This document shows, piece after piece, positions 9,363 to 25,130 of a stretch of 64,000 nt of DNA. The position numbers were made by a program, and so were the translations under genes. This stretch comes from Streptomyces roseochromogenus subsp. oscitans DS 12.976. Its GTDB lineage: Bacteria > Actinomycetota > Actinomycetes > Streptomycetales > Streptomycetaceae. Below the pieces are notes generated by a model. It had not been told where the DNA came from and did no database searches. It saw nothing but the letters and a program-made list of their open reading frames with translations. The stretch is from NCBI RefSeq assembly GCF_000497445.1, contig NZ_CM002285.1, forward strand, positions 9,268,961 through 9,332,960. The letters are read 5' to 3'. The first letter of the stretch is position 1. Each line of letters starts with the position of its first letter.

Positions 9363-9817
9363 GAAACGTCAAGCGCGACATCGGCGGTGAAGCTCAGGGC
9401 GGCGGAACTTGCGTACATCCGAGGGGAATTGACGGTGAGGACGTATCAGGTCATCGGCGAGCCAAGTCTGGTCCAAATAAGGGACGGCTTTTTCAGATTC
9501 CGGACGGAATGGTTGCGTACCGGCCAGCCGTGAGTGAACCGAGCGTGGACATCGGACCCGATGGCGCGCACCGTACGTGACACCCGGCGCCGGTACACGG
9601 GCCCGGCGTGCTCAGATGGCTACGACCCGGCGCCGCCCGTCGTGCCGCACGCTCGGCCGGATTGCTTCCTTGTTGTGGCGGGCGAGCGTCGCCATACTCG
9701 TCGCGCTTGGCATGGTCACGTCGGACCTTTGTGGCCCCCCGCCCCATGCCTTTCATCCCCTCATCCCTCCGGCCCGGCTCGTCGAGTGAGCGGGGCAACC
9801 CCCACAGGAGGCCTCCT
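9363..9817. other. Intergenic region between phosphatase and protease
   Basis: About 455 bp between divergent genes. No convincing gene is seen. It holds the PHO-box-side promoter of the phosphatase on the left, an AT-rich patch near 9470-9495, and the protease leader with its ribosome binding site on the right. Confidence 0.5.
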
Positions 9818-10900
9818 ATGGCGCAACGCCGAACAGCTCTCACCACCCGCGCGCTCACCGGAGCGAGCGTCGTGGTCCTCACCGCCGGCGCCGCACTGCT
9901 CCCCGGCGCGGGCTCGGCCACGGCCGCCACCGGTTCCGCCGCAGCCACCCCGGCCGCGGCCCGTGCCGCGTCCGCCGCGTCCCTCGTCGCCCGCCTGGGC
10001 GACCGCGCCGCCGGTTCCTACTACGACGCCGTGGCCCGCCAGATCATCGTCAACATCACTGACCCGTCCGCGGCCGGCCAGGTCCGCAACACCGGTGCCG
10101 TCCCCAGAACCGTGCGCTACTCCACCACCCAACTCCGTGGCGCACTCGGCACGTTGACCCAGCGGGCCCGGATCGCGGGCACTGCCTGGGCGATCGACCC
10201 CCGCCAGGACAAGGTGGTCGTGACCGTCGACCCGACGGTCACCGGAGCCAAGCGCGCCCAACTGAACACCGTGGTCCACTCGCTCGGCGACAAGGTCGTC
10301 GTGCGTCGGGCCGCTTCCGCGTTCAAGCCGCTCATCGCGGGCGGCGACGCCATCTGGGGCAGCGGTGTGCGCTGCTCCCTCGGGTTCAACGTGACGGTGA
10401 ACGGCGCGCCGTACTTCCTGACCGCCGGGCACTGCGGCAACGCCTCCTCGGCGTGGTCCGACTCGCAGGGCGGCGGCGAGGTCGGCCAGACCGTCGACTC
10501 CCATTTCCCCGGCACCGACTACGCCCTGGTCCAGTACGACGACGCGAACAGCGACCACGCCAGCGTCGTAGACCTCTACGACGGCGGCAGTCAGCAGATC
10601 ACCCACGCCGCCGACGCCTACGTGGGCGAATCGGTCCAGCGCAGCGGTAGCACCTCCGGTGTCCACGGCGGGTCGGTCACCGGCCTCGACGCGACCGTGA
10701 ACTATGAGGAGGGCTCGGTCTCTGGGCTCATCGACACCAACGTGTGCGCCGAGCCCGGCGACAGCGGCGGCGCGCTCTTCGACGGCGACGCGGCCATCGG
10801 CCTCACCTCGGGCGGCAGCGGCGACTGCAGCTCGGGCGGCGAGACCTTCTTCCAGCCGGTGCCTGCGGCGCTGAGCGCGGAGGGTGCGACTCTTCCGTAA
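9818..10900 (+). CDS. Streptogrisin-type S1 serine protease, secreted proenzyme
   Basis: 360 residues from ATG 9818, preceded by AGGAGG at 9806-9811. A Sec-type signal peptide runs to about residue 40, then an alpha-lytic-type propeptide to residue 172. The mature enzyme should begin at Ile173 (IAGGDAIWG), matching the mature start of streptogrisin B, and its 188 residues are close to that enzyme's length. The catalytic triad is His205 (TAGHCGN), Asp234 (TDYALV) and Ser316 (EPGDSGGA). Disulfide cysteines are conserved at RCSLGF, GHCGN, NVCAEP and GDCSSGG. The propeptide acts as folding chaperone and inhibitor and is removed autocatalytically outside the cell. A stand-alone gene followed by a hairpin terminator. 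Confidence 0.95.
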   Translation: MAQRRTALTTRALTGASVVVLTAGAALLPGAGSATAATGSAAATPAAARAASAASLVARLGDRAAGSYYDAVARQIIVNITDPSAAGQVRNTGAVPRTVRYSTTQLRGALGTLTQRARIAGTAWAIDPRQDKVVVTVDPTVTGAKRAQLNTVVHSLGDKVVVRRAASAFKPLIAGGDAIWGSGVRCSLGFNVTVNGAPYFLTAGHCGNASSAWSDSQGGGEVGQTVDSHFPGTDYALVQYDDANSDHASVVDLYDGGSQQITHAADAYVGESVQRSGSTSGVHGGSVTGLDATVNYEEGSVSGLIDTNVCAEPGDSGGALFDGDAAIGLTSGGSGDCSSGGETFFQPVPAALSAEGATLP

Positions 10901-11190: not shown

Positions 11191-11492
11191 CTCTCGCGTC
11201 ACTCACGCCTCTTTTATCCATTGTGGCGGACACCATGTGGCAGCCTGGCCGGAGCGGTCTCCGCCCGCTCTTCCTTACGGCTGCGGGAGGTAGTCAGGGC
11301 GTGGGCGCGCCGGAGGGGCAGTTCACACCATCGCAACGGACGTGGGGCCTCCGCTCGGCACGCCCCACCAGCCGGGATCAGCGATGACACGGCCGGAGGC
11401 GGTCTGATGGGGATGTCAGTGACGTAACGGCGTTGAGGTTCCGAGCCGGTCTCCTCTTGAATGCGCTTCAAGTATCCGTAAACTGGAAAACC

Positions 11493-12186
11493 ATGCGCTA
11501 TCTCTCAATGGGCACTTCCGGGTTACAGGTCTCCGCAGTCGGCTTGGGATGCAATGAACTGGGGCGATCTGTCGGGCTCGACCAGGCGCGTACGGTGGTA
11601 AGCGCCGCACTGGATGCCGGATACACCCGACCCGCACACTCCTATTGAGGAGACGCTCGCCGCTCTGACCGAGCTGGTGCGGGAAGGCAAGGTCCGCTAT
11701 ACCGGGAATTCTAATTTCGCTGGCTGGCAGATCGCTGAAGCCGCGTGCGTCGCCCGTTCCGCAGGGTTCGAACGGTTCATATCCGCGCAGAACCACTGGT
11801 CGCTACTTGACCGCGCCAGCGAGAACGAAGTCGTCCCGGCTGCACGTCATTTCGGACTCGGAGTACTGCCGTATTTCCCGCTGGAGAACGGTTTGCTGAC
11901 CGGGAAGGTGCGACGTGGCAAGGTCATCCCGGCAGGGACCCGCATCGCGGAGAGCGCGTACCAGGTGACGGAGGCGCGGCTTGACACCGTAGAGGCACTG
12001 GTCGCCTGGGGCATGAAGAACGGTCGCAGCCTCCTGGAGATCGCGGTCGGTGTCCTCGCCGCGCTTCCAGGCTGCAGTTCGGTGATCGCGGGGGCCACGA
12101 AGCCGGAGCAGGTGAGGGCCAACGCGGCGGCTGGGGAGTGGGTTCCCGCCGCCGAAGAGCTGGGGGAGATCTTGGAGCTGCTGTAG
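11493..12186 (+). pseudogene. Aldo/keto reductase with internal deletion
   Basis: ATG 11493 opens a normal aldo/keto reductase N-terminus (MRYLSMGTSGLQVSAVGLGC) in one frame, which runs to 'VVSAALDAG' and ends at a stop near 11646. Another frame resumes at about 11620 with 'DPHTPIEETLAALTELVREG' and continues through 'RYTGNSNFAGWQIAEA' and 'SVIAGATKPEQVRANAAAG' to the true C-terminus at 12186. About 90 residues of the TIM barrel are missing, including the segment carrying the catalytic Tyr and Lys, and the junction shifts frame. The family reduces aldehydes and ketones with NADPH; this copy cannot work. Confidence 0.8.
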
Positions 12187-12687
12187 AGCAGCCTGATCGC
12201 CCCCGGCTACAACTCCCTGTCGGCGTGAGTCCGCCGTCTCCACCCGGCCTTCGTCGGCTCCCGGAGCCGCTGTCCCCCGCACAGGATCGAGAGCCGCACT
12301 GTCAGGTAAAACAAGGCGTTCATATGGAACGCATCCCCCCGGGAGGGCCTCTCTACAGCCGGAACACGCATCGCGGGGTTGAGGAAGGAGGCCACGGCGG
12401 TTCCGGGTCCGGCCGTGGACGCTGAAACATCGGTCCAGGCCCGACGGACCTTCGCACACCCGCGATCGGCGAAATCCACCAGGACCGTTCCGATAGCATG
12501 ATCCAACACCCACGGCGAGCGCCCTGATCGCCCGTCCTGCACCGGGAAACGAAGCTGTCCGACACGTACAGCGATCTGTTTAATACATCTAGAAAATCGG
12601 CCAAACAAATTGATACCTATAGCATCACGGTTTTTTTCGCGAATAAAGTGCAGAATTGACTTCGCCGCGTGGCGTCGACCACGGGTG
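12187..12687. other. Intergenic region with an AT-rich promoter-like stretch
   Basis: No recognisable gene. A minus-strand frame (around 12207-12580) is open but matches nothing I know. The stretch 12570-12655 is markedly AT-rich for this genome (runs of T, TTAATACATCTAGAAAAT) and probably contains the promoter of the PAP2 gene. Confidence 0.45.
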
Positions 12688-13971
12688 ATGCTGTGGGTGA
12701 CGGCGGGTGTGGTGGCCCTCGGGTTCCTCATCGTGCTGGAGATTGCTGCGCGTGGGTACGGCCTGCCTGGGCCGCTCACCAATCAGGCGCGAGAGGTGGT
12801 ATTCCCTCCCAAGTCGGGTTTCCTGTTGTACGCCGGTATGGCGTTGCTGATGGTGGTGCTCACCTGGCGGCAACGATTCATCGCGGCCGGCGTCGCGATC
12901 GGCATCGACGTCGTCTTCTTGCTGGTGCGGTGGGCGGCCGACGTCAAGGTGACCGACGGCCACCCCTTCGGCAACGGCGCGTTGTGGGTGGTTCTGGGAT
13001 ATGCGGTCATCGCTGTCACGCGCCGCAAGGGCCGGGAGCGTGTCCTGCTCCTGAAGGGCGTCGGGCTGGCCCTGCTGCTGGTGGCCGGTCGCAAGACCGG
13101 CGATACCTGGCTGCTCATCACGTCGAAGACCCGCCCGGCGGTGTTCGACCAGTACGTGGCAACCGTCGATCATGTGTTGGGCGACCCTTCGTGGCTGGCA
13201 GGACGAATTGTCAGGGCCACCGGTCCGATCGGCTCCCATATTCTCGACTATGTCTACATTCAGCTTGCGGTGGCCGCGGTCGTCGTCGCGACGTACCAGC
13301 TGCGGAACGTGGCGGTCGAGCGGCGTTTCCCGCGCCACCATCTGGTGCGCACCTTTCTGGTGATCGGCCTCCTCGGGCCGGCCGTCTATATGGTCTTCCC
13401 GGTGGTCGGACCGGTCTTCGCCTACAGCGCCGAGGGCGGGCACTGGGCGGCGGCGAACCTGTGGCCGGACACTCCGCCGCCGATCAATACCCCGCACCAG
13501 ATGCCGTTCGACGAGATCACCCCACGTAACTGCATGCCCAGCCTCCACACGGCATGGGCCACCGCGATTTTCATTCATTCCCGCAAGGGCCCGCGGATTC
13601 TGCGCTACGCAGGCACCTTCTGGCTGATAGCCACACTCGGCGCAACGCTGGGATTCGGCTACCACTACGGCGCCGATCTCGTTGCCGGCATGGTGTTCGC
13701 GCTCACGGTCGAGGCTGCCCTGCGTTCGCTCGCACGTGGCTGGGATCGCTCAGGAACCCGATTGGTCGCCCACGGCACAGCGGTCTTTTTCGCGCTCTTG
13801 GTGTCGTACCGTTATCTGCCGACGGAGATGGCCGAACATCCGTGGGTGTTCGGACCGCTTCTCATCCTGGCGATGACCTCAGTGATCCACGGCTACATAC
13901 GGACCACCAGGCGATGGGAACCGCAGACCGCGGCAGTGCTGCAACCGGAACCGCAACCCGAACCCGTTTGA
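12688..13971 (+). CDS. PAP2-superfamily membrane phosphatase / inositolphosphotransferase-like
   Basis: A multi-spanning protein of about 427 residues. Hydrophobic segments alternate with short loops, and the C-terminal half carries the PAP2 signature: 'RNCMPSLHTAW' (phosphate-binding Ser-Leu-His) and 'GFGYHYGADLVAG' (catalytic His and Asp). The family dephosphorylates lipid pyrophosphates or transfers phospho-head groups in the membrane. The frame is open back to a TTG at 12610, but bases 12610-12650 are AT-rich and non-coding in style, so I prefer ATG 12688 (or GTG 12685). Neither has a strong ribosome binding site. Monocistronic. The exact substrate is unknown. Confidence 0.8.
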   Translation: MLWVTAGVVALGFLIVLEIAARGYGLPGPLTNQAREVVFPPKSGFLLYAGMALLMVVLTWRQRFIAAGVAIGIDVVFLLVRWAADVKVTDGHPFGNGALWVVLGYAVIAVTRRKGRERVLLLKGVGLALLLVAGRKTGDTWLLITSKTRPAVFDQYVATVDHVLGDPSWLAGRIVRATGPIGSHILDYVYIQLAVAAVVVATYQLRNVAVERRFPRHHLVRTFLVIGLLGPAVYMVFPVVGPVFAYSAEGGHWAAANLWPDTPPPINTPHQMPFDEITPRNCMPSLHTAWATAIFIHSRKGPRILRYAGTFWLIATLGATLGFGYHYGADLVAGMVFALTVEAALRSLARGWDRSGTRLVAHGTAVFFALLVSYRYLPTEMAEHPWVFGPLLILAMTSVIHGYIRTTRRWEPQTAAVLQPEPQPEPV

Positions 13972-15590: not shown

Positions 15591-18107
15591 TCAGCGCAGG
15601 TCGACGACCGTGCGAAGCTTGCCGCTGACGGGGGTGCGCTCGAAGGTCTCCCTCCGTACGTTCTGCACGGCAAGGGACAGCAGTCCCTCCTCCACCGCTG
15701 AGGCCACCTCCGGAACGTCGGTGGTGACCGCGGTGCGTGTGAGGTCGGGGTCGGGGGCGTACTGCTCGTCGAGCCGGACCGTCAGCTGCTCCCGGTCGGT
15801 GCCGGGCGCCACCGACAGCTGCACCTCACCGTGATACGCGAGCCGCTCCTCCAACGCCCGTACGATCCGCCGGTAGTTGATGAAGTACGTGCCCACGCGC
15901 ACCACATCGCCGTAGCGCCCGAGCAGTTCCAGGCGCGGCACGGTGCTGCCGCAGGCACACGTACATTCCACCGCACGTCCCAGATCACCGATCTCGTAGC
16001 GCTCCAGGCGCTGACCGGCCCGGGCTCGGGAGGTGAACACCAGCCGCCCCGGTTGGCCCGAAGCCACCGGCCGGTCCTCCCGCGGATCCAGGATCTCCAG
16101 TGTGTGCAGGTCGGTCAGCACATGGTGGACCGAGCCGTCGGAGGACGCGCACTGGTAGCCGAGGGGGCCGAGGTCGGTGCTGCCGTAGGCCGCGGAACGG
16201 ATCACCTTCACCCCGAAGACCTCGGTGAGCACCCGGCGTTGTTCGGTGGTGAAGTGCTCGCCGCCGTAGAACACCTGGCGGATGCCGCCGTAGGCGCGCA
16301 GCCGGTCGGACTCGGCGTGCAGCAGCTGCCACAGGTAGGACGGCATGCCGAAGACGGTGTCGGCCCGGTGGGCGATCAGCGCCTCGGCGACCATGGCGTG
16401 GTCTGGGCCTGCGGCGATCGGGAACTGGGTGGCGTTCAGGCGTTCCAGGATGGAGAAGAAGCTGATGAAGCTCCCGTACATGCCGCCGCTGTAGAAGAGG
16501 TTGGCCGCCCGGTCCCGTGCCGGGTCGAAGCCGGCCGCGAGCAGCCCGTCCGCCGCGGCGCGCATCTGGTTGTCGTAGTCGTCGCAGGTGAACACCGACA
16601 GCGCGGGTGCGCCCGTGGAGCCTCCGCTGCGGAAGTGCAGGTGTGCGTGGCGCGGTTCCAAGGCGGCGAGCGCGCGCTGCACGCCCTCCTTGCCCAGGAG
16701 TGGCGCGTCCGGTGCGGGGGGCAGCACCGGTGGCGCCACCAGGTCGTCCAGACAGGGCACCGTACGGAAGTCCGCGTCCCCGGCGCGCACGCTCACCCTG
16801 CGGCTGTAGCGCTGCAACGCGTAGACGCCGTCGTGCGGTTCGCCCTCGTAGCTGTCCAGCATGGAGCCGACCGGGGTGACGCGGGTGACGCCCGCGGCGA
16901 ACACCGCGCGCGAGAGCTCGGCCACTTCCGCGCGGGTGCCGCCGATCGCAGCGGTCTGCAGATAGCGGCGCATGGGCCGCAGTGTCGCGGTGACCGCGTG
17001 CCGGGGGAGCGGTTTGACCCAGACGCTGCGGTGCAGCGGGGAGGCGTCGAGTGCGGCACGTGTGTCGGCCAGTACCCGCCAGGAGCCGTCCTCGGCGGCG
17101 AACACACGGGTGAGGCCCAGGTGTTGTTCGAGCCGGGCGAGTTGCTGCACGGTGGTGATCTCCGCCTGCTCGGCGGGATCCGGCGCGGGCGCCTGATGTC
17201 CGTCGGACACCTTCGCCAGCCGTTCGGCGAACCGGCCGGCGAACGCGAAGAGTTCCCCGGTGTCGTCGGTGTCGAGATACACCACCTGTGGGCTGGAACA
17301 CGCCTGCTGTTCGTAGCGGCAGACATCTTCGGCGAGCGCGTCGAGCACCCCGTCCTCGGACGAGGCCCGCCGGGTCAGGTAGGCGAAGGAGATCCGGTGA
17401 CCCCACTCGACCAACCGACAACCGGGCTGGGCCAGTTCGCCCGCCGCGCGCACCGCGTCCTCGCCGCCCCACACCGCGATCGCGTCCGCCGGCCCGCAGA
17501 CCGCTTCCAGCCACGCACGGCGCGCGGAGGAGAAACGCAGGGCGACGACGCGCTCGGCGATCAGCCCGGACGGGTCGGCCGCACCGAGCGCGGCGAGCAC
17601 GTCGAGGGCGAGGGCCGAGTCGGAGCTGCTGGTCTTCAGCACGTTGAGGTTGCCCGCCAGCAGTCCCTCCACGACGCTCAGCGGTGCCACGGCCGCGGCG
17701 TTGCCCGGCGCGATGTGCACCAGCAGGCCGACGGGCGCCCAGGCCTCGTACACCGTCTCGCGGGCGTCCGGCCGGGTCAGCCGTTCCGGGCGCAGGCCGC
17801 CCAGCTCCCGCCGCAGTTTACGCTCCAGCGCCTCCCGGGTCAGTGCGCTCGCCAGCTCGGCCAGCACGGCCGGGGCCTCGGCCGCGGGCAGCTGCCCGGC
17901 CAGCCGGCCGTACAGGGCGGAGGCGGGATCGGCCAGGGAACGGCTGACCGCGGCACAGGCGCCGAGTACCACGTCGGTGGGCAGGGGACGGCCCAGGACC
18001 TGCCCGGCCAGCTCGGGCAGACCGGCGAGCCGCCGGCCGGCCTCGGCGTCGTCGACGAACTCGCCCTGCCAGAGGTGGAGTACGGGGTGGTCTACGGAGG
18101 TGGTCAC
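15591..18107 (-). CDS. LuxC-type acyl reductase fused to a PaaK-like adenylation domain
   Basis: 838 residues from the GTG at 18107, which overlaps the stop of the preceding gene (GTGA). Residues 1-445 form a LuxC acyl-CoA reductase (PF05893, aldehyde dehydrogenase fold): 'APVGLLVHIAPGNAAAVAPL', 'NLNVLKTSS' and the active-site Cys270 in 'EQQACSSPQ'. Residues 470-838 form an ANL-type adenylating domain like phenylacetate-CoA ligase: 'FRSGGSTGAPALS' at about 492-504, 'YGSTDLGPLG', and the 'CTCACGSTVPRLELLGR' cysteine cluster. LuxC reduces an acyl thioester to an aldehyde with NADPH; the fused domain should activate a carboxylate as adenylate. Normal LuxC is about 480 residues, so the fusion is unusual. 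Last gene of the five-gene operon; no luxAB nearby. Confidence 0.85.
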   Translation of the reverse strand: MTTSVDHPVLHLWQGEFVDDAEAGRRLAGLPELAGQVLGRPLPTDVVLGACAAVSRSLADPASALYGRLAGQLPAAEAPAVLAELASALTREALERKLRRELGGLRPERLTRPDARETVYEAWAPVGLLVHIAPGNAAAVAPLSVVEGLLAGNLNVLKTSSSDSALALDVLAALGAADPSGLIAERVVALRFSSARRAWLEAVCGPADAIAVWGGEDAVRAAGELAQPGCRLVEWGHRISFAYLTRRASSEDGVLDALAEDVCRYEQQACSSPQVVYLDTDDTGELFAFAGRFAERLAKVSDGHQAPAPDPAEQAEITTVQQLARLEQHLGLTRVFAAEDGSWRVLADTRAALDASPLHRSVWVKPLPRHAVTATLRPMRRYLQTAAIGGTRAEVAELSRAVFAAGVTRVTPVGSMLDSYEGEPHDGVYALQRYSRRVSVRAGDADFRTVPCLDDLVAPPVLPPAPDAPLLGKEGVQRALAALEPRHAHLHFRSGGSTGAPALSVFTCDDYDNQMRAAADGLLAAGFDPARDRAANLFYSGGMYGSFISFFSILERLNATQFPIAAGPDHAMVAEALIAHRADTVFGMPSYLWQLLHAESDRLRAYGGIRQVFYGGEHFTTEQRRVLTEVFGVKVIRSAAYGSTDLGPLGYQCASSDGSVHHVLTDLHTLEILDPREDRPVASGQPGRLVFTSRARAGQRLERYEIGDLGRAVECTCACGSTVPRLELLGRYGDVVRVGTYFINYRRIVRALEERLAYHGEVQLSVAPGTDREQLTVRLDEQYAPDPDLTRTAVTTDVPEVASAVEEGLLSLAVQNVRRETFERTPVSGKLRTVVDLR

Positions 18108-19270
18108 GACATTCCCTTCATCAGTTCGGCGGCGGCGACCGCGCAGCTGCGGTTGCGGCTCACTCCGGCACGGCCGTGCACGGTGAACCAGTCCGTCGAC
18201 AGCGCACAGGGACACTCCTCGCCGGGGTGCAGCGACGCGAGGTCGCCCATCACCACGCTCTGCGCGGGCACCGAGGTGATGTAGGGGCTGACCAGGTGCA
18301 GGAAGCCACGATCGCCGTACGGCAGTGGACGCAGCGTCCCGGTGTCACGGACGGCCGCTCGCGACCACACCGGCACGTGCAGCCGGTGATGGGCGCACTC
18401 CACGTACGGCACACAGTGCTCGACGGAGCCGAACGTGTCGCGGACACGCTCCGCGGGAATCCCGAGGCGGTCGGTGACCTCGGCGTAGAAGGCGTCCTTG
18501 CCGATCTGCCGGTCGGCGTGACCCTTCCAGCCGCCGCCGAGCACCACCAGCGATCCCTCGGGCAGCCGCAGCGGCGGCAGCCCCATCGCCCGCATCCGCT
18601 CCAGGGTGAAGTACAAGAACGCGGGGAATCCCAGGATGCGGACCGGTACGTCGTCCTCGGCGTAACGCTGGATCGCCGCGATGCAGCCGTTCACGTCGAA
18701 CTCGTGGCCGGTGCCGGTGTGCCGCAGGGCATGCGTGGTGTGCCGGGCCGGGGCGAAGTCGCACAGATAGTTGTCGGTGAACGACGTGCCCAGTCTCAGC
18801 GCCGGAGCAGGCTCGTAGCTGTAGAGCAGGTAGTTGACCGGCTGCTCGGGAGTGATCCAGCCGTAGTGGTCGAAGATCCGGGCCACCATGCGCTGCGCCG
18901 AGCGGATGGTCCACTCGTCGAAGAACATCTGTGACTTCTGGCCCGTTGTGCCCGAGGAGGTCAGGTGGAGGAACACCTCGTCGCGCGGGATCGAGAGCAC
19001 CTCATGACGCTTGAAGAAGGCGGCGGGCACGAGCGGGGTGCGCACGCCGTCGCCGACCGTGGGAGCGGGTGTTTCGGCCTGCTCCCCGAGCAGGGCCGCG
19101 AAGAAGGGGGAGCGGCGGGCGTGCCAGGCGTTGGCCTCCGCCATGGCGGAGGCGAACAGCGCGTCGGCGTCGGGGCCGTCGGCGTACGGCTCCGCCAGGT
19201 CGCACAGGCGTTGCACATGGCCGAGCGCCGCCGGGTCGGGGACCTCGACGGGGGCGAGATGGGGTTTCAT
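18104..19270 (-). CDS. LuxE-like acyl-protein synthetase
   Basis: 388 residues from ATG 19270, close to the usual LuxE length of about 370. It is an ANL-superfamily acyl-protein synthetase (PF04443): the ATP-binding 'TSSGTTGQKSQMFFDEW' at 104-120, 'VVLGGGWKGH', 'DTFGSVEHC' and 'YGDRGFLHLVSPY'. In bioluminescent bacteria LuxE activates a fatty acid with ATP, carries it on a cysteine near its C-terminus, and hands it to LuxC. Cys376 in 'NRSCAVAAAEL' is in the right place for that carrier. Start overlaps the GNAT stop by four bases and its stop overlaps the LuxC start, so stoichiometric production of a LuxE-LuxC complex is likely. Acyl substrate unknown. Confidence 0.85.
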   Translation of the reverse strand: MKPHLAPVEVPDPAALGHVQRLCDLAEPYADGPDADALFASAMAEANAWHARRSPFFAALLGEQAETPAPTVGDGVRTPLVPAAFFKRHEVLSIPRDEVFLHLTSSGTTGQKSQMFFDEWTIRSAQRMVARIFDHYGWITPEQPVNYLLYSYEPAPALRLGTSFTDNYLCDFAPARHTTHALRHTGTGHEFDVNGCIAAIQRYAEDDVPVRILGFPAFLYFTLERMRAMGLPPLRLPEGSLVVLGGGWKGHADRQIGKDAFYAEVTDRLGIPAERVRDTFGSVEHCVPYVECAHHRLHVPVWSRAAVRDTGTLRPLPYGDRGFLHLVSPYITSVPAQSVVMGDLASLHPGEECPCALSTDWFTVHGRAGVSRNRSCAVAAAELMKGMS

Positions 19271-20400
19271 CGGGACACCTCGTGAAGGGGCAGGTAGGTG
19301 GTGGTCCAGGCACTCAGGTAGGCAGCGAGGTACGGCTGGAGCAGCGGGCTGACCGCGGTGGTGCGGAAGTCGATCTGACGGCTGGTGCGCGAGAGCACGA
19401 CATAGTCGTGGAGCCGGTCGTGGACGCGGCGCATCGCGGGGTAGACCGCGCTCGGTACGAATCCCGAGGCGAGGAACACCGCCAGCGCCTCGGTGTCGGC
19501 CAGCGGCAGCAGCGCTTCGACATAGTCGGCGCCGGCCCGCGTGACCGACGCGATCATCGCCTCCAGGGTTCCCGCCACCGCGGACGGACGTGGATGGACC
19601 GCGACCAGCGCGCAACTGCCTGCCACCGGGTCGAGATCGGCGTACGCCTCGAAGCGGCCGTCGGCGGCCACCAGGACCGCGTTGGGCGTGTGCAGCGGGA
19701 AGAAGCGGTCGTCTGGTGCGGGGAACAACTCCAGGAAGCGGCGCCGCACGAAGGCCGGGGCCGCGATCAGCTCGACCGGTTCGGCCTCGGTGGCGGCCGC
19801 CGCACCGCGGCAGGGGGCAGGCCGAGTGCGGGTGTAGTCGATGCCGACGCCGCGGGAAGCGGCGGACAGCAGCGCCGACAGCCGCTCGGGCACGCTCGCC
19901 ACGGGTGCGCGGCGCTCCAGCACACCGTCGGCGTAGCGGGCGAACAGGGCGAGAGTCTCGCAGCCTTCGACCTCTACGGCGTTCGGGAGCAGGCCGAGCG
20001 GCCGGAATCCGTTGCGTACGACGACCTGCTGCGGACCTTCGGTGACCAGGCGGACGGTGGCATACACCGAGTCCAGCAGGCCCGTGGCGAAGGCCTCGTC
20101 GCAGACCGCCCCGGTCAGCCGGGAGGCCAGACCGCCGCCGCGATGGCCGGGGTGCACCGCGAGGCCGACCAGTTTGCCGATGCGGCTGCCCGGTTCGGTC
20201 AGGACGACCGCGGAACCGACCAGGTCGCCCGCGTGGGCGCGGGCGGTGAGCCAGTAGGCGGTGCCGTCGGTGATCAGCTTGCGCATGACCACCGGGTCGC
20301 TGCCGAGCGGCACCGGGTAGCCGTGCCCGTACACCTCGAAGTACAACTGCCGCAGCTCGGCGATGTCCTGGACGGAAGCGGGGGAGAGGACGGCGTTCAT
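19267..20400 (-). CDS. Double GNAT-domain acetyltransferase
   Basis: 377 residues from ATG 20400. The N-terminal GNAT domain has a clear acetyl-CoA binding motif at about residues 78-94 (VGLAVHPGHRGGGLASRL) and 'VVVRNGFRPLG'. A second, degenerate GNAT-like fold occupies the C-terminal half (YVEALLPLADTEALAVFLAS). The family N-acylates amines or peptides. In this operon, between an MFS exporter and a LuxE-like enzyme, it could acylate an amine in the pathway product or protect it; that is inference. Four-base overlaps on both sides show tight coupling. Cytoplasmic. Confidence 0.8.
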   Translation of the reverse strand: MNAVLSPASVQDIAELRQLYFEVYGHGYPVPLGSDPVVMRKLITDGTAYWLTARAHAGDLVGSAVVLTEPGSRIGKLVGLAVHPGHRGGGLASRLTGAVCDEAFATGLLDSVYATVRLVTEGPQQVVVRNGFRPLGLLPNAVEVEGCETLALFARYADGVLERRAPVASVPERLSALLSAASRGVGIDYTRTRPAPCRGAAAATEAEPVELIAAPAFVRRRFLELFPAPDDRFFPLHTPNAVLVAADGRFEAYADLDPVAGSCALVAVHPRPSAVAGTLEAMIASVTRAGADYVEALLPLADTEALAVFLASGFVPSAVYPAMRRVHDRLHDYVVLSRTSRQIDFRTTAVSPLLQPYLAAYLSAWTTTYLPLHEVSR

Positions 20401-21668
20401 GAGGCCTCTCCCGCGGGTACTGGCGCCGGTGCGTCCGGCCCGCGCTGCTCAGCGACGTGCGCGCGGCTGCCGAGCCACCACAGCGTCAGCGCGACCGGCA
20501 CGAGCCCCGCGCCCTGCGCCAGGCACAGCGTCCGGGCGGTCAGCTGGTCGCCCAGCGCGCCGAAGACGAGCGAGGACACCGGGAACGTGGCACCCAGCAG
20601 TGCCTGCATGACCGCGAAAAAGGCCGGTTTGTCGTCAGCGGGCACCATCCGCTGGCACAGCGCTACGAAACGCACGCCGATGACACCGAGGCTCCAGCCG
20701 ATGACGGCCATCGAGACGAGCGCCACCGCGTGGCCGGGGAACAGCCCTGGCAGTCCGAAGGCCGCGGCCATCACCATCAGGCACACACTGCTGACGGTGA
20801 CCGGACGGCCGGGCAGACGCCCGCCGATGAACGTGCCTACCAGGGTGCCCGCACCGAGGGCCGTCTCCAGTGAGGCGACGGTCGACCCGGTCGCGTGCAG
20901 CACCTCCCGGGTGTACAGCGGCATGACGACGTAGACGGCGGTGGTGAAGACGTTGGCGGCGGCGAAGCAGACCAGCACGCGACGGATGAACGGCAGACCG
21001 GCCAGTACCCGGCGCAGCGAGCGCCGCTCCGGGGCCGGGCCGTCTCCGGCCTCACGGTGCGGAAAGCGCGTGGAGCCGATCAGCAGGGCAGCGAGCAGGT
21101 ACGCGGCGCCGCAGACGGCGGTCACGCCGGCCAGTGCGCCCGCGTCTACCACGAGGGGACCGAGCAGGCCCCCGGACAGTCCGGCGACGGACTGGGTGGA
21201 CAGTTCGAAGCCGGTGGCCGACTCGATATCGGCGTCCTCGACGAGTTCCGGCACCGAGGTGGTCAGACAGGGATCGAAGACCGCCTGACAGCCGGCCAGC
21301 ACCAGCCCCACCGCGTAGGCGGCGGCCATGGGAAGAGCCCCGGCGCAGGCCAGGGCGGCGGCCGTCACGGCCACCGCACCCGCGACAGCCGCCGCGCTCG
21401 CCAGCACCGTGCGGTGCGCGTGCCGTGCGACGACGCGGGCGATCACCGGGGCGAGTGCCACCGCGGGCACGGTGCTCACCATGAGGAACAGGCCCGAGTC
21501 GAGCCCGCGGTGCTCGCCGCCCGCGAACCCGACGAGCCACCAGACCGCGCCGACCTGGAACATACGGCTCGCCGCCTGGGTGAGGAGCTGACCGGCCCAG
21601 ACCCTGCCGAACGACGGATTGCGCAGGACAAGCGGCAGGCGCCGAGCGCGCGCAGGCGCCGCGCTCAC
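20397..21668 (-). CDS. MFS transporter of the acyl-reductase operon
   Basis: 423 residues from the GTG at 21668, which overlaps the stop of the adenylating enzyme. Twelve hydrophobic segments are visible, with 'RNPSFGRVWAGQLLTQAAS' at the start, typical of MFS_3-like macrolide or enterobactin-type exporters, and conserved loops 'ARVVARHAHRTVL' and 'GGRLPGRPVTVSS'. It probably exports the pathway product, or the compound against which the host needs protection. Its position inside the operon, with ATGA/GTGA overlaps on both sides, ties export to synthesis. An earlier in-frame Met at 21746 lies within the upstream gene and is unlikely to be the start. Confidence 0.85.
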   Translation of the reverse strand: MSAAPARARRLPLVLRNPSFGRVWAGQLLTQAASRMFQVGAVWWLVGFAGGEHRGLDSGLFLMVSTVPAVALAPVIARVVARHAHRTVLASAAAVAGAVAVTAAALACAGALPMAAAYAVGLVLAGCQAVFDPCLTTSVPELVEDADIESATGFELSTQSVAGLSGGLLGPLVVDAGALAGVTAVCGAAYLLAALLIGSTRFPHREAGDGPAPERRSLRRVLAGLPFIRRVLVCFAAANVFTTAVYVVMPLYTREVLHATGSTVASLETALGAGTLVGTFIGGRLPGRPVTVSSVCLMVMAAAFGLPGLFPGHAVALVSMAVIGWSLGVIGVRFVALCQRMVPADDKPAFFAVMQALLGATFPVSSLVFGALGDQLTARTLCLAQGAGLVPVALTLWWLGSRAHVAEQRGPDAPAPVPAGEAS

Positions 21669-22927
21669 GTGTGCGGCCGTTCGTCGACGACCCGGATGAG
21701 CTTGCCCGAGCGGGAGTTGACCGCGAGATCCTGATGGCGCACCCATTCGACGCGGAGCGGGTTCACGTGCCCGGCGACGGTCGCGCTTGCGTAGAAGGGC
21801 CGCTCGGCGAGGACCGCCGCCACGACGGACTCCTCCAACCCGGCAGGCACCTTCCGCGGTTCGGCGACCGCGAGCCGCAGCACCAGGCCGTCCCGGCCGT
21901 CCCGGCGCCGCACCACGAGCTGCACACCGGTCACCTCGCCCCGGGTGTCAGCGGCGGTGACGATGTCATGGACGTCCTCGGTGTAGAGGGAGACGGGGCC
22001 GACCCGCACGCCCTCCTCGGCGCGCCCGAGGATACGGAAGACACCCGCGTCCCGGTCCACCCACTCGGCCCGGTCGCCCGCCGGATAGCGAAGCACCGGC
22101 ATGAGCCGTCTGCGGAGATCGGTGACGACCAGCCGCCCCGGCACGCCGTTGCCATCGACGGGTTCGTCGGTCTCGTCACGGAGGATCTCGACCACCGTGT
22201 GCGGTGTGAACACGCGGTGCACGCGCGGATCACCACCGGGCACGGCCTCGCCGAGGAGCCCCGCGTCGACGCTCGCATAGCCCAGGGAGCGCGGCTCGGC
22301 ATTCGGGAACGCGTCCCGAAGCAACGGGAGTTGGTCTCCGAAGAGGCATTCCCCGCCGAAGAAGAGCAGCTCCACGTCCGGCAGGGGCCGGTTCGCGCCG
22401 GCCAGGCGTTCGGCGAGCGAGCACAGTGTGGTCGGGGTGCCCGCGACGACCTGGACCTGGAACTCCTCCAGAGTCGCCGCGGTGGATTCCCAGGGCGTCG
22501 CGCCGCCGATGGGCAGGCGGACGTTGGCCACCGGGGAGCGGTGCAAGGCGTCGAGCACGAAGCTGAAGCTCGCGTACAGGTCGCCCGCGTAGAAGAGATC
22601 CGCCACCCGGTGACCGGGCTGCAGCCCGGCGCGGACGAGTCCGGCGCCGAACGCGGCGGTGAATTCGCGCCATTCGGTGCGGGTGTAGTAGGAGAACTTC
22701 GGCGAGCCCGTGGTTCCGCCGCTGCGGAATACGACCGCTTCGTTCAGGGGGGCGGTCAGCAGCCGGTTGTCGCGAGGCGCGTTGGCCCGCCAGAAATCGG
22801 CCTGGGGCACCACCGGGAGATCCGTGAGACGCGTCACGCGAGGGCCGAGGTCGGCGTAAAGGTCGCGGTAGAAAGGCGAGTTGTGCCGGGCGAAACGTAT
22901 GAGTTCCGCAATTGGTTGAACGGGCAT
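21665..22927 (-). CDS. PaaK-like acyl adenylating enzyme (phenylacetate-CoA ligase family)
   Basis: 420 residues from ATG 22927, chosen because AGGA sits five to six bases upstream; the longer GTG at 22960 has no ribosome binding site. An ANL enzyme of the PaaK/LuxE branch: 'FRSGGTTGSPKFS' at 67-79 (phosphate-binding loop), 'LLFFGGECLFGDQ', 'LRYPAGDRAEWVDRDAG' and 'FRILGRAEEGVRVGP' in the hinge region, then a small C-terminal domain ending with a Lys (SRSGKLIRVV) that fits the A10 catalytic lysine. It should activate a carboxylic acid as acyl-adenylate and then thioester. First gene of the operon and the third adenylating domain in it. Confidence 0.82.
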   Translation of the reverse strand: MPVQPIAELIRFARHNSPFYRDLYADLGPRVTRLTDLPVVPQADFWRANAPRDNRLLTAPLNEAVVFRSGGTTGSPKFSYYTRTEWREFTAAFGAGLVRAGLQPGHRVADLFYAGDLYASFSFVLDALHRSPVANVRLPIGGATPWESTAATLEEFQVQVVAGTPTTLCSLAERLAGANRPLPDVELLFFGGECLFGDQLPLLRDAFPNAEPRSLGYASVDAGLLGEAVPGGDPRVHRVFTPHTVVEILRDETDEPVDGNGVPGRLVVTDLRRRLMPVLRYPAGDRAEWVDRDAGVFRILGRAEEGVRVGPVSLYTEDVHDIVTAADTRGEVTGVQLVVRRRDGRDGLVLRLAVAEPRKVPAGLEESVVAAVLAERPFYASATVAGHVNPLRVEWVRHQDLAVNSRSGKLIRVVDERPHT

Positions 22928-23492
22928 CAATTCCTGCTCGAAGGCGTGGACCGCCGACACGGGAAAGCCGGCAGAGTGCGACGGGAAGGGCCCACTGACG
23001 TGGGCTTCGTTCGCTGAATGTGTGAAAGGGCGGACGCTCGTGACGAGCGGGCGCCCGGAGGCGAGTTTATCTCACCATTCGGAACGTTCTTGCGCCAACT
23101 TGCCATCCACGGAGGGAAGGTTGACACCTCGCGGACGGGTTATGGGGTACCTCGGTTCCCGGGACGTCCGGAGACGGTGATCACATCCAACTTGTCCCCT
23201 ATAATGGCTCTTTGAGGATGGCTCAAGGAAGACTTATGGAAAGCCGGTTCCCGGCGATTTCGTTTCATGGCTTGAACTTGACTCCGTCCGCTCCATCGGT
23301 CTGATCCCAAGAACGGGAAAAATCAGGGACCTGTCGCCGCGCTCGGCTGCTGGGCCGCGACGGCGTCGTGCGTCATCCGAGCAGTGGTCCCCCGGGCCGA
23401 CCGGGATTGCCTGCCGAAGAAGTGTTATCCGGGGCGCGTCACGAGGTCTCCCAGGTGTCGGACACAATCGTGCGGTCTCGAGGACAGGAAGC
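22928..23492. other. Divergent promoter region between the acyl-reductase operon and the sigma-CAP gene
   Basis: 565 bp without a convincing gene. On the operon side are two small palindromes: GCCCAC-TGAC-GTGGGC (22990-23005) and GCTCGT-G-ACGAGC (23036-23048). A minus-strand TAAACT at 23069-23064 could be a -10 element. On the plus strand TTGACA occurs at 23121-23126 without a good -10. The two transcription units face away from each other and could share regulation. Confidence 0.45.
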
Positions 23493-25130
23493 ATGGGTAT
23501 GAGCACGCAGGACGCGATGGAGACGGCGGCACTGGTCACGGCCGCCCGAGAGGGCGACACACAGGCACAGGACGCCTTGGTCAACGCGTACCTCACCCTG
23601 GTCTACAACATCGTGGGCCGAGCGCTGAACGGCTCGGTGGATGTCGACGACGTGGTGCAGGAGACCATGCTGCGGGCCCTGGACGGGCTGGGCGGACTGC
23701 GCACCCCCGAGCGTTTCCGCTCCTGGCTGGTGGCCATCGCGATGAACCAGGTCCGGGAGTACCGGCAGAATCGTCTCTCCGCCCCGGGCGGAGTGGAGGA
23801 GGCCGAGGACCTGGCCGATCCGGGTGCCGACTTCGTCGATCTGACCGTCGTCCAGCTCCAGCTCACGGGGCAGCGCCTGGAGACGGCGCGGGCGACACGC
23901 TGGCTGGAGCCTGACGACCAGGAACTGCTGTCCCTGTGGTGGCTGGAGTGCGCCGGCGAGCTCACGCGGGCCGAGGTCGCCGCGGCTCTGGAACTCTCGC
24001 CTCAGCACGCAGCGGTCCGGGTCCAGCGGATGAAGGCACAGTTGGAAGCGGCCCGCGTGGTGGTACGAGCGCTCGACGCACGCCCGCGGTGTGAGGAACT
24101 CCGGATCGTGCTGGCCTCCTGGGACGGCAGGCCTTCGGCTCTGTGGCGCAAGCGAATAGCCCGGCACGCGCGCGGCTGCACGCGCTGCAGTGGGTTGTGG
24201 AGCGGACTGATGCCCGCAGAGGGGCTGCTGGCCGGTCTGGCACTGATAGCGGCGTCACCCGCACTGCTTGCCGTGGTTTCCTCTGGTCCGGGAAAGCTTG
24301 CCCCGGCTGGCGCTGCGGCACGACTCTACATACCGGGGGGTGGCGCGGGATCGGGCCCGGGCACAGGACGGCGTGGCGTACGGGACCGGACCGGCTCGCG
24401 CAGTCAGTCCCGTCGGCGTCGGCGCATGCGCCGACGGGCCGTCGGTGGCGCCGTCGTTGCGGCCTGTGTGGCGGGAGGCGGTCTGTGGTACTTCGGTACC
24501 GACTCCGGCGCCGACGGCGCGAACGCCGGGCGAGGTTCAGCCGTACCCGTCGTGGACCTCTCCACGCCCAGCGCCGAGGGCGGATCGCCGTCGCCCTCGC
24601 TTACTCCGTCCCCGTCCGCAACGAAGCGGAAGAAGGCGAGCGCCACCAAGTCGGCGAGCCCTGCCGAAAAGCGCACACCTGCAGCCCCCCGATCCACCCA
24701 CCGGACTCCCGCCGCCTCAAACCCACCGCAGACTCAACCCGATCCGACCAACGTCGCGGACCAGGTAGTTGCGCTGGTGAACAAGGAACGGTCAGCCGCC
24801 GGCTGCGGCCCGCTCACCGAGAACCCGCAACTGCAGAAGGCGGCCCAGGGCCACTCCGACGACATGGCCGCACGCCACTTCTTCGACCACACCAACCCGG
24901 ACGGCGCGGATCCCGGGCAGCGCATCACCGCCGCCGGATACCAGTGGTCCACATATGGCGAGAACATTGCCCAGGGCCAGCAGACCGCCGCAGCCGTCAT
25001 GGAGTCCTGGATGAACAGCCCCGGCCACCGGGCGAACATCCTCAACTGCTCCTTCAAGGACATCGGCGTCGGCGTGCACAAGGGAGACGGCGGTCCCTGG
25101 TGGACGCAGGACTTCGGCGCCAAGATGTGA
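23493..25130 (+). CDS. Sigma-70 (ECF-like) factor fused to zinc finger, membrane segment and CAP domain
   Basis: 545 residues from ATG 23493. Region sigma2 spans about 12-92 (VDVDDVVQETMLRALDGLGG, FRSWLVAIAMNQVREYRQ) and sigma4 about 130-195 (LTRAEVAAALELSPQHAAVR). A zinc-finger-like anti-sigma motif follows: H225-x3-C229-x2-C232. There is a hydrophobic stretch at 242-262, an Arg-rich stop at 301-315, a strong membrane helix at 316-335, a Ser/Thr/Pro/Lys linker at 336-420 and a CAP/SCP domain at 424-545 ('HSDDMAARHFFDH', 'GENIAQG', 'HRANIL'). By the positive-inside rule the sigma part is cytoplasmic and the CAP domain outside, so one polypeptide may be sensor, tether and transcription factor. 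ECF proteins with C-terminal anti-sigma and membrane extensions are known in actinobacteria. Whether this one needs cleavage for release is inference. Confidence 0.85.
   Translation: MGMSTQDAMETAALVTAAREGDTQAQDALVNAYLTLVYNIVGRALNGSVDVDDVVQETMLRALDGLGGLRTPERFRSWLVAIAMNQVREYRQNRLSAPGGVEEAEDLADPGADFVDLTVVQLQLTGQRLETARATRWLEPDDQELLSLWWLECAGELTRAEVAAALELSPQHAAVRVQRMKAQLEAARVVVRALDARPRCEELRIVLASWDGRPSALWRKRIARHARGCTRCSGLWSGLMPAEGLLAGLALIAASPALLAVVSSGPGKLAPAGAAARLYIPGGGAGSGPGTGRRGVRDRTGSRSQSRRRRRMRRRAVGGAVVAACVAGGGLWYFGTDSGADGANAGRGSAVPVVDLSTPSAEGGSPSPSLTPSPSATKRKKASATKSASPAEKRTPAAPRSTHRTPAASNPPQTQPDPTNVADQVVALVNKERSAAGCGPLTENPQLQKAAQGHSDDMAARHFFDHTNPDGADPGQRITAAGYQWSTYGENIAQGQQTAAAVMESWMNSPGHRANILNCSFKDIGVGVHKGDGGPWWTQDFGAKM

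Follow-up and report, generated by a model that had tools for sequence, protein, structure and literature searches.

A five-gene Streptomyces operon predicted to make and export a leupeptin-type peptide aldehyde

The 64,000-nucleotide stretch of the genome of Streptomyces roseochromogenus subsp. oscitans DS 12.976 analysed here ('the window'; contig NZ_CM002285.1, positions 9,268,961 to 9,332,960) contains, at 22927-15591 on the minus strand, five genes that very probably form an operon for a peptide aldehyde of the leupeptin type (Table 1). They encode, in this order, a PaaK-like adenylating ligase, an exporter of the major facilitator superfamily (MFS), a tandem GNAT protein, a LuxE-like acyl-protein synthetase and a fusion of a LuxC reductase with a PaaK-like domain, and translation of the open reading frames (ORFs) makes each of the four junctions a 4-bp overlap. 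This layout, and the protein families named in a first-pass annotation made from the sequence alone, are borne out by all five frames and by Pfam and NCBIfam matches: a single protein carries both LuxC (E = 1.5e-86) and AMP-binding (5.8e-9) regions, and the LuxE family (4.8e-26), MFS_1 (1.3e-22) and GNAT (1.4e-9, with the Pfam match in the first unit only) were each recognized in the expected product. The separate ligase falls below the Pfam cut-off for AMP-binding proteins (25.0 vs. 29.9 bits) and matches a PaaK-like NCBIfam model (3.4e-20). No luciferase, LuxD, carrier, condensation, ketosynthase or nonribosomal peptide synthetase (NRPS) reductase family was matched in the five proteins, in keeping with the earlier statement that the operon lacks luciferase, carrier protein, NRPS and polyketide synthase; for luxAB this refers to the five operon proteins, as the rest of the genome was not searched for luciferase. 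In the same genome the LuxC family has a single strong match, at 294 bits; two others are marginal (24 and 23 bits). As the window occupies 9.27-9.33 Mb of a 9.66-Mb contig, the operon is located on a chromosome arm.

The five genes are a real conserved unit. Forty loci were compared, comprising the window and 39 others chosen for a matching LuxC-PaaK or GNAT protein. All five genes are on one strand in 33 of them, among variable flanking genes, and in these 33 complete loci the gene order is identical, the MFS gene always occupies the same place, and 120 of the 132 junctions are exact 4-bp overlaps. The other seven consist of two at contig ends (L046, L051), one from Kitasatospora (L053), three that lack the separate ligase (L114-L116) and one in which LuxE and LuxC stand alone (L031). 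Another 15 loci included six of the five-gene type and nine of a second type considered below. When the 45 ORFs called in the window (by a home-made gene caller that misses overlapping genes) were compared by tblastn with 28 loci, the five genes recurred in 24 to 28 of them and any other gene in no more than three. Chance co-occurrence can thus be rejected, given the exact overlaps and this recurrence, and so can the idea that the five belong to a larger cluster. The cassette was detected through its GNAT protein in 45/392 sampled Streptomyces genomes and through LuxE in 22/101 genomes of a family sample, while LuxE was found in 10/394 genomes of a class sample, seven of them from the same genus and three giving weak partial matches (own genome counted in each case). 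The nearest named relative found, Streptomyces sp. IMTB 2501 (L034), shows 92-96% identity across the five proteins.

To judge from conserved residues, the operon enzymes look active. Cysteine 376 of LuxE and cysteine 270 of LuxC are present in 40/40 loci (a catalytic cysteine of the reductase had been mentioned in the first-pass annotation), and lysine 420 of the separate ligase in 34/34; lysine 830 in the PaaK part of the fusion is kept in 39/40, with L031, which lacks that part, as the exception. In the lux system the C-terminal cysteine of LuxE is the acylation site, to which Cys376 would correspond here. The first unit of the GNAT protein retains the acyl-CoA loop (G90 and A92 in 39/39, R87 in 36/39), and the second, by eye without such a loop, has an invariant YPAMR (39/39). 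An AlphaFold2 model (mean predicted local distance difference test score, pLDDT, 88.5) contains two successive alpha/beta units, as the description 'double GNAT' had implied, and all of the 50 Foldseek matches listed for it were acetyltransferases, including phosphinothricin acetyltransferases as well as a clavulanic acid biosynthesis protein that is itself a tandem GNAT.

Does such a set of enzymes have a known product? The first-pass annotation recognized none, and in this respect needs correction, for the set is that of leupABCD, the leupeptin operon of gammaproteobacteria. The leupABCD cluster of Klebsiella michiganensis/K. oxytoca, Photorhabdus and Xenorhabdus was reportedly described by Li et al. 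in 2020. A cluster of this type in these organisms is also described in passages of two later sources (PMC11480411; PMC11212599), one of which attributes the leupeptin of Xenorhabdus bovienii to separate AMP-dependent ligases and a reductase (passage in PMC11212599), and the K. michiganensis CAV1374 copy is placed at CP011636.1:315353-321183 (5831 bp), with an adjoining transporter, in a passage of PMC8283571. The primer leupB_r printed in the same source provides a link to the genes considered here. Its reverse complement encodes EQLKDH(A), which was present in 66 of 373 proteins screened (a set with no K. michiganensis LuxE, PaaK or GNAT), every one a LuxC-PaaK fusion taken from the homologue list of the window fusion; it begins at residue 47 except in a single short row (residue 23), and leupB is therefore the LuxC-PaaK fusion. 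The remaining lengths (c. 1079 nt for leupA, against 1128 for Salmonella LuxE, and 2293 nt after leupB, against 1302 + 885 for Salmonella PaaK and GNAT) fit leupA being LuxE and leupC/leupD being PaaK/GNAT.

The Salmonella genes used for this comparison came from a tblastn scan of plasmids, in which matches to LuxE (53%) and to the LuxC-PaaK fusion (34-39%) were found on two Salmonella enterica plasmids. One of these (CP054717) has LuxE, LuxC-PaaK, PaaK and GNAT in one run, and the other (CP053580) has the first three annotated and no GNAT annotated. The window LuxE is 53% identical to a Salmonella plasmid protein over 369 columns and the separate ligase 37% over 421 columns, and the fusion is 40% identical to a K. 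michiganensis fusion (P0267) over its whole length; K. michiganensis is also abundant among the 120 best homologues (out of 526) that were listed for the fusion. With the Salmonella ligase as query against the whole S. roseochromogenus genome, the window ligase came first (273 bits), followed by the PaaK part of the fusion (82) and a match of 44 bits. No match was obtained in the Escherichia coli genomes or in the viral contigs scanned. On the two Salmonella plasmids, which are conjugative and of IncF type, the operon (L174, L175) is flanked by recombinase and toxin-antitoxin genes.

All of the leup-type features are present in the window: a LuxC-PaaK fusion (the counterpart identified by the primer), an adjoining LuxE, a separate PaaK ligase and an in-operon GNAT (these three being matched to leup genes by length and through their Salmonella counterparts). 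The likeness is to enzyme types rather than to arrangement. The order in the window is PaaK-MFS-GNAT-LuxE-fusion, against LuxE-fusion-PaaK-GNAT; the window operon, unlike leupABCD, includes the MFS gene and is translationally coupled, and the Salmonella plasmid operon, a single run of these four enzyme types, likewise has no MFS gene inside it. The window GNAT has 377 residues and a second GNAT unit, against 294 residues in Salmonella, and identities of the other three proteins to the leup-type set are 37-53%. With the luxCE genes of bioluminescence the operon shares a LuxE synthetase and a LuxC reductase, together with both catalytic cysteines, but its LuxC has an extra adenylating domain, no luciferase or LuxD family occurs among the five proteins, and the proposed substrate is a peptide acid.

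Several streptomycetes reported to produce leupeptin provide a further connection. Streptomyces cattleya DSM 46488 and S. griseochromogenes DSM 40499 make leupeptin, its precursor acetylleucylleucine and congeners, according to passages of PMC12235219. Plasmid pSCATT of S. cattleya DSM 46488, the reported producer strain itself, carries all five genes, and S. griseochromogenes has the same fusion protein (P0031) as L121, a locus with all five. Metabolomics pointed to leupeptin and acetylleucine in S. anandii NC-SA6 (passage in PMC13364919), and all five genes are present in S. anandii JCM 4720 (L047). Leupeptin from another strain of S. cattleya, and strepin P1 from Kitasatospora cystarginea, are mentioned in part of PMC5511137. 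A tree built from 67 fusion proteins groups S. cattleya, S. griseochromogenes and S. anandii with the window in one 21-row subclade, and the window fusion shares 73-82% identity with those of the three species.

From all this, it seems very probable that the operon makes and exports an N-acyl peptide aldehyde of the leupeptin type. Leupeptin itself, as acetyl- or propionyl-Leu-Leu-argininal, is the most likely product, along with congeners. An N-acyl tripeptide aldehyde calls for three activations, one reduction, one N-acylation and export, and the three adenylating units, single reductase, single N-acyltransferase and single exporter of the operon cover these steps with none spare and none missing. 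In the route that we propose, the tandem GNAT would acylate leucine; the separate ligase and the PaaK domain of the fusion would each form one amide bond at the expense of ATP, giving acyl-Leu-Leu and then acyl-Leu-Leu-Arg; the LuxE-like protein would adenylate the peptide acid, hold it on Cys376 and pass it to Cys270 of LuxC, which would reduce the thioester to the aldehyde with reduced nicotinamide; and the MFS protein would export the aldehyde. We infer every substrate, the assignment of ligases to bonds and the product. The hand-over from LuxE to LuxC is modelled on the luminescence system, LuxC and LuxE of which occur together in one solved entry (7xc6). Gene content thus lends support to the first-pass suggestion of carboxylate activation by three adenylating units, formation of an aldehyde by one reductase, N-acylation and export. 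Its further suggestion of an imine metabolite finds no support; it is the aldehyde itself that probably serves as warhead in a protease inhibitor of the peptide-aldehyde class.

Table 1. The operon and a promoter-like stretch upstream of it (positions in the window)
Feature	Position	Strand	Counterpart or detail	Basis
PaaK-like adenylating ligase	21665..22927	-	corresponds to the separate PaaK gene in leup operons (leupC, from order and length)	
MFS exporter	20397..21668	-	GTG start; overlaps ligase gene by 4 bp	Pfam/NCBIfam
Tandem GNAT, proposed leucine N-acyltransferase	19267..20400	-	leupD counterpart	Pfam, AlphaFold2 model
LuxE-like acyl-protein synthetase	18104..19270	-	leupA counterpart by length and order; Cys376 codon 18145-18143	Pfam
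LuxC reductase fused to PaaK-like adenylating domain	15591..18107	-	leupB counterpart; reductase Cys270 codon 17300-17298	Pfam
Promoter-like stretch	23068..23099	-	TTGGCG, 18 bases, TGAGAT; upstream of first gene	chosen by eye

Leupeptin is a standard laboratory protease inhibitor. It was first obtained from Streptomyces, in 1969 (reference in part of PMC11212599), and if the proposal is correct, genes can now be named for a classic product in its original genus. Its formation by operons of this kind is already known from gammaproteobacteria, so what is new here is the Streptomyces operon and its clade-wise variants. In our literature search we found no paper tying these Streptomyces genes to leupeptin (that of Li et al., from 2020, was outside the search and may do so), and a search on LuxC/LuxE in Streptomyces clusters found nothing relevant. 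The operon would also represent a small, carrier-free and clonable route to peptide aldehydes, of which its relatives probably make others.

A number of points weigh against the leupeptin proposal. The product of the window strain is a prediction from genes and homology. The correspondence of the GNAT proteins is weak (28% identity over 135 residues; profile probability 96.5% over 182 columns), the Salmonella GNAT giving no match in the window by tblastn at 1e-3, and leupA, leupC and leupD have been assigned by length and Salmonella analogy only. Although the operon is present in 3/3 producer species that could be tested, these species were met through papers on leupeptin; the S. anandii genome strain (JCM 4720) differs from the producer (NC-SA6), and no strain designation was shown with the S. 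griseochromogenes genome. Other producers, reported in passages of the sources, were outside the test (S. albospinus RLe7, S. roseus ATCC 31245, S. virginiae THA-960 and an Edelweiss isolate). Finally, passages in two papers credit NRPSs: Streptomyces leupeptin in PMC10548850, and the leupeptin congeners of strain LN699, assigned to an antipain NRPS, in PMC11212599.

What else might the operon make? The same machinery could be used for another N-acyl peptide aldehyde, with other residues or as a dipeptide or a longer peptide. Congeners containing valine, lysine, propionyl or other residues are made by producers (passages in PMC12235219 and PMC5511137), and related cassettes, which fall into separate clades, do not all have the same genes, but the position of the window fusion inside the subclade of the three reported leupeptin species, at the identities given above, makes this rather unlikely. 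It is more doubtful still that leupeptin in Streptomyces is the work of an NRPS of antipain type ending in a reductase, a reading favoured by the two papers that credit NRPSs, and that the operon makes something else. Such NRPSs do give the same kind of product, a peptide aldehyde; the five window genes have no carrier, condensation or NRPS reductase domain matches. The model for NRPS-type thioester reductases (TIGR01746, curated cut-off 213 bits) gave no match over its cut-off in the window genome (best 61 bits) or in S. cattleya (best 110), in a comparison that had no antipain-NRPS genome as positive control; the sub-cut-off matches in S. cattleya are to ORFs that begin with the reductase, S. 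griseochromogenes has one match over the cut-off, in an 810-aa ORF, and all 14 control genomes give matches below it.

Two-protein aryl acid reductases, namely GriC/GriD of grixazone and EhpF/EhpG of a phenazine, also combine a PaaK-like ligase with a LuxC-like reductase. Reduction of an aryl or fatty acid to a non-peptide aldehyde or imine in their manner is nevertheless very improbable for the operon, since its LuxE, separate ligase and fusion are 53, 37 and 40% identical to the leup-type set, against 24-27% for other plasmid LuxE matches, from Priestia and Rhizobium (GriC/GriD and EhpF/EhpG were not in this comparison).

The relatives of the window operon suggest some variety in what is made. 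The tree of fusion proteins comprises 41 rows of the five-gene type (type I), 10 of a second type (type II), three from the ligase-less cassettes and 13 from proteobacteria, each separated by a well supported branch. Type II cassettes, found in Kitasatospora and related genera (L053, L160, L162-L165, L169-L171, L173), consist of GNAT-LuxE-fusion with a ligase gene beside them, convergent or downstream, and no MFS gene, no MFS homologue being matched in the ten loci; the flanking regions have in common only what is shared between close relatives. Near two of the ten, L053 and L163, lies a gene for a protein that combines adenylation and carrier domains of NRPS type (domains were scanned in L053 only, where Pfam found no condensation domain). 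A fixed NRPS partner was rejected, however, as the L053 protein was detected by tblastn in only two of the nine other type II loci (L162, 24%; L163, 32%). In L114, L115 and L116 the arrangement is MFS-GNAT-LuxE-fusion (fusion 52-53%), with no separate ligase gene within the 10.9-20 kb covered, and one peptide bond fewer would be expected in the product.

LuxE and LuxC also occur as a pair. At 9146-11643 of L031, from a Streptomyces genome, they are present (LuxC 52%) with no PaaK, GNAT or MFS adjoining, and a pair without PaaK (50% and 46% identity to the window) occurs at 4070-12528 of L200, from a plasmid of Streptomyces europaeiscabiei NBC 01735 (NZ_CP109155.1). The same-strand run there includes a metallo-beta-lactamase-fold protein, a 51-aa ORF and an MbnB/TglH/ChrH-type enzyme (DUF692) of ribosomally synthesized and post-translationally modified peptides (RiPPs), and the opposite strand encodes a YcaO-nitroreductase protein; this cluster is possibly for a RiPP with a C-terminal aldehyde. 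We tentatively suggest, as a possibility and less than an expectation, that LuxE-LuxC is a portable module of Streptomycetaceae for turning peptide acids into aldehydes, the peptide being provided either by free PaaK ligases, one for each bond (so that the ligase-less type would give dipeptide aldehydes, and type II another peptide), or by a RiPP-like cluster such as that of L200. If so, ligase number and clade would predict the inhibitor made.

Upstream of the operon, the TGAGAT of the promoter-like stretch is invariant in 18/18 aligned loci, and the TTGGCG part is kept only partly. The ATG at 22927 is backed as the start of the ligase gene by a preceding AGGA-containing stretch, conserved in 18 loci including the window; an in-frame GTG at 22960 is an alternative. 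The divergent gene at 23493-25130, whose product has a sigma-70 region 2 domain at its start and a CAP domain at its end, was found next to the operon in L034 and L036 alone. At the other end, some 5 kb away from the operon, 9608-10900 encodes a secreted protease of the alpha-lytic/trypsin family, a family that could be a target for the inhibitor, but none of the 28 other loci gave a match to this protease. We also draw attention to L201, on a plasmid of Streptomyces sp. NBC_00158, in which a five-gene operon is directly followed, at 11455-12822, by three genes whose annotation is peptidase inhibitor family I36.

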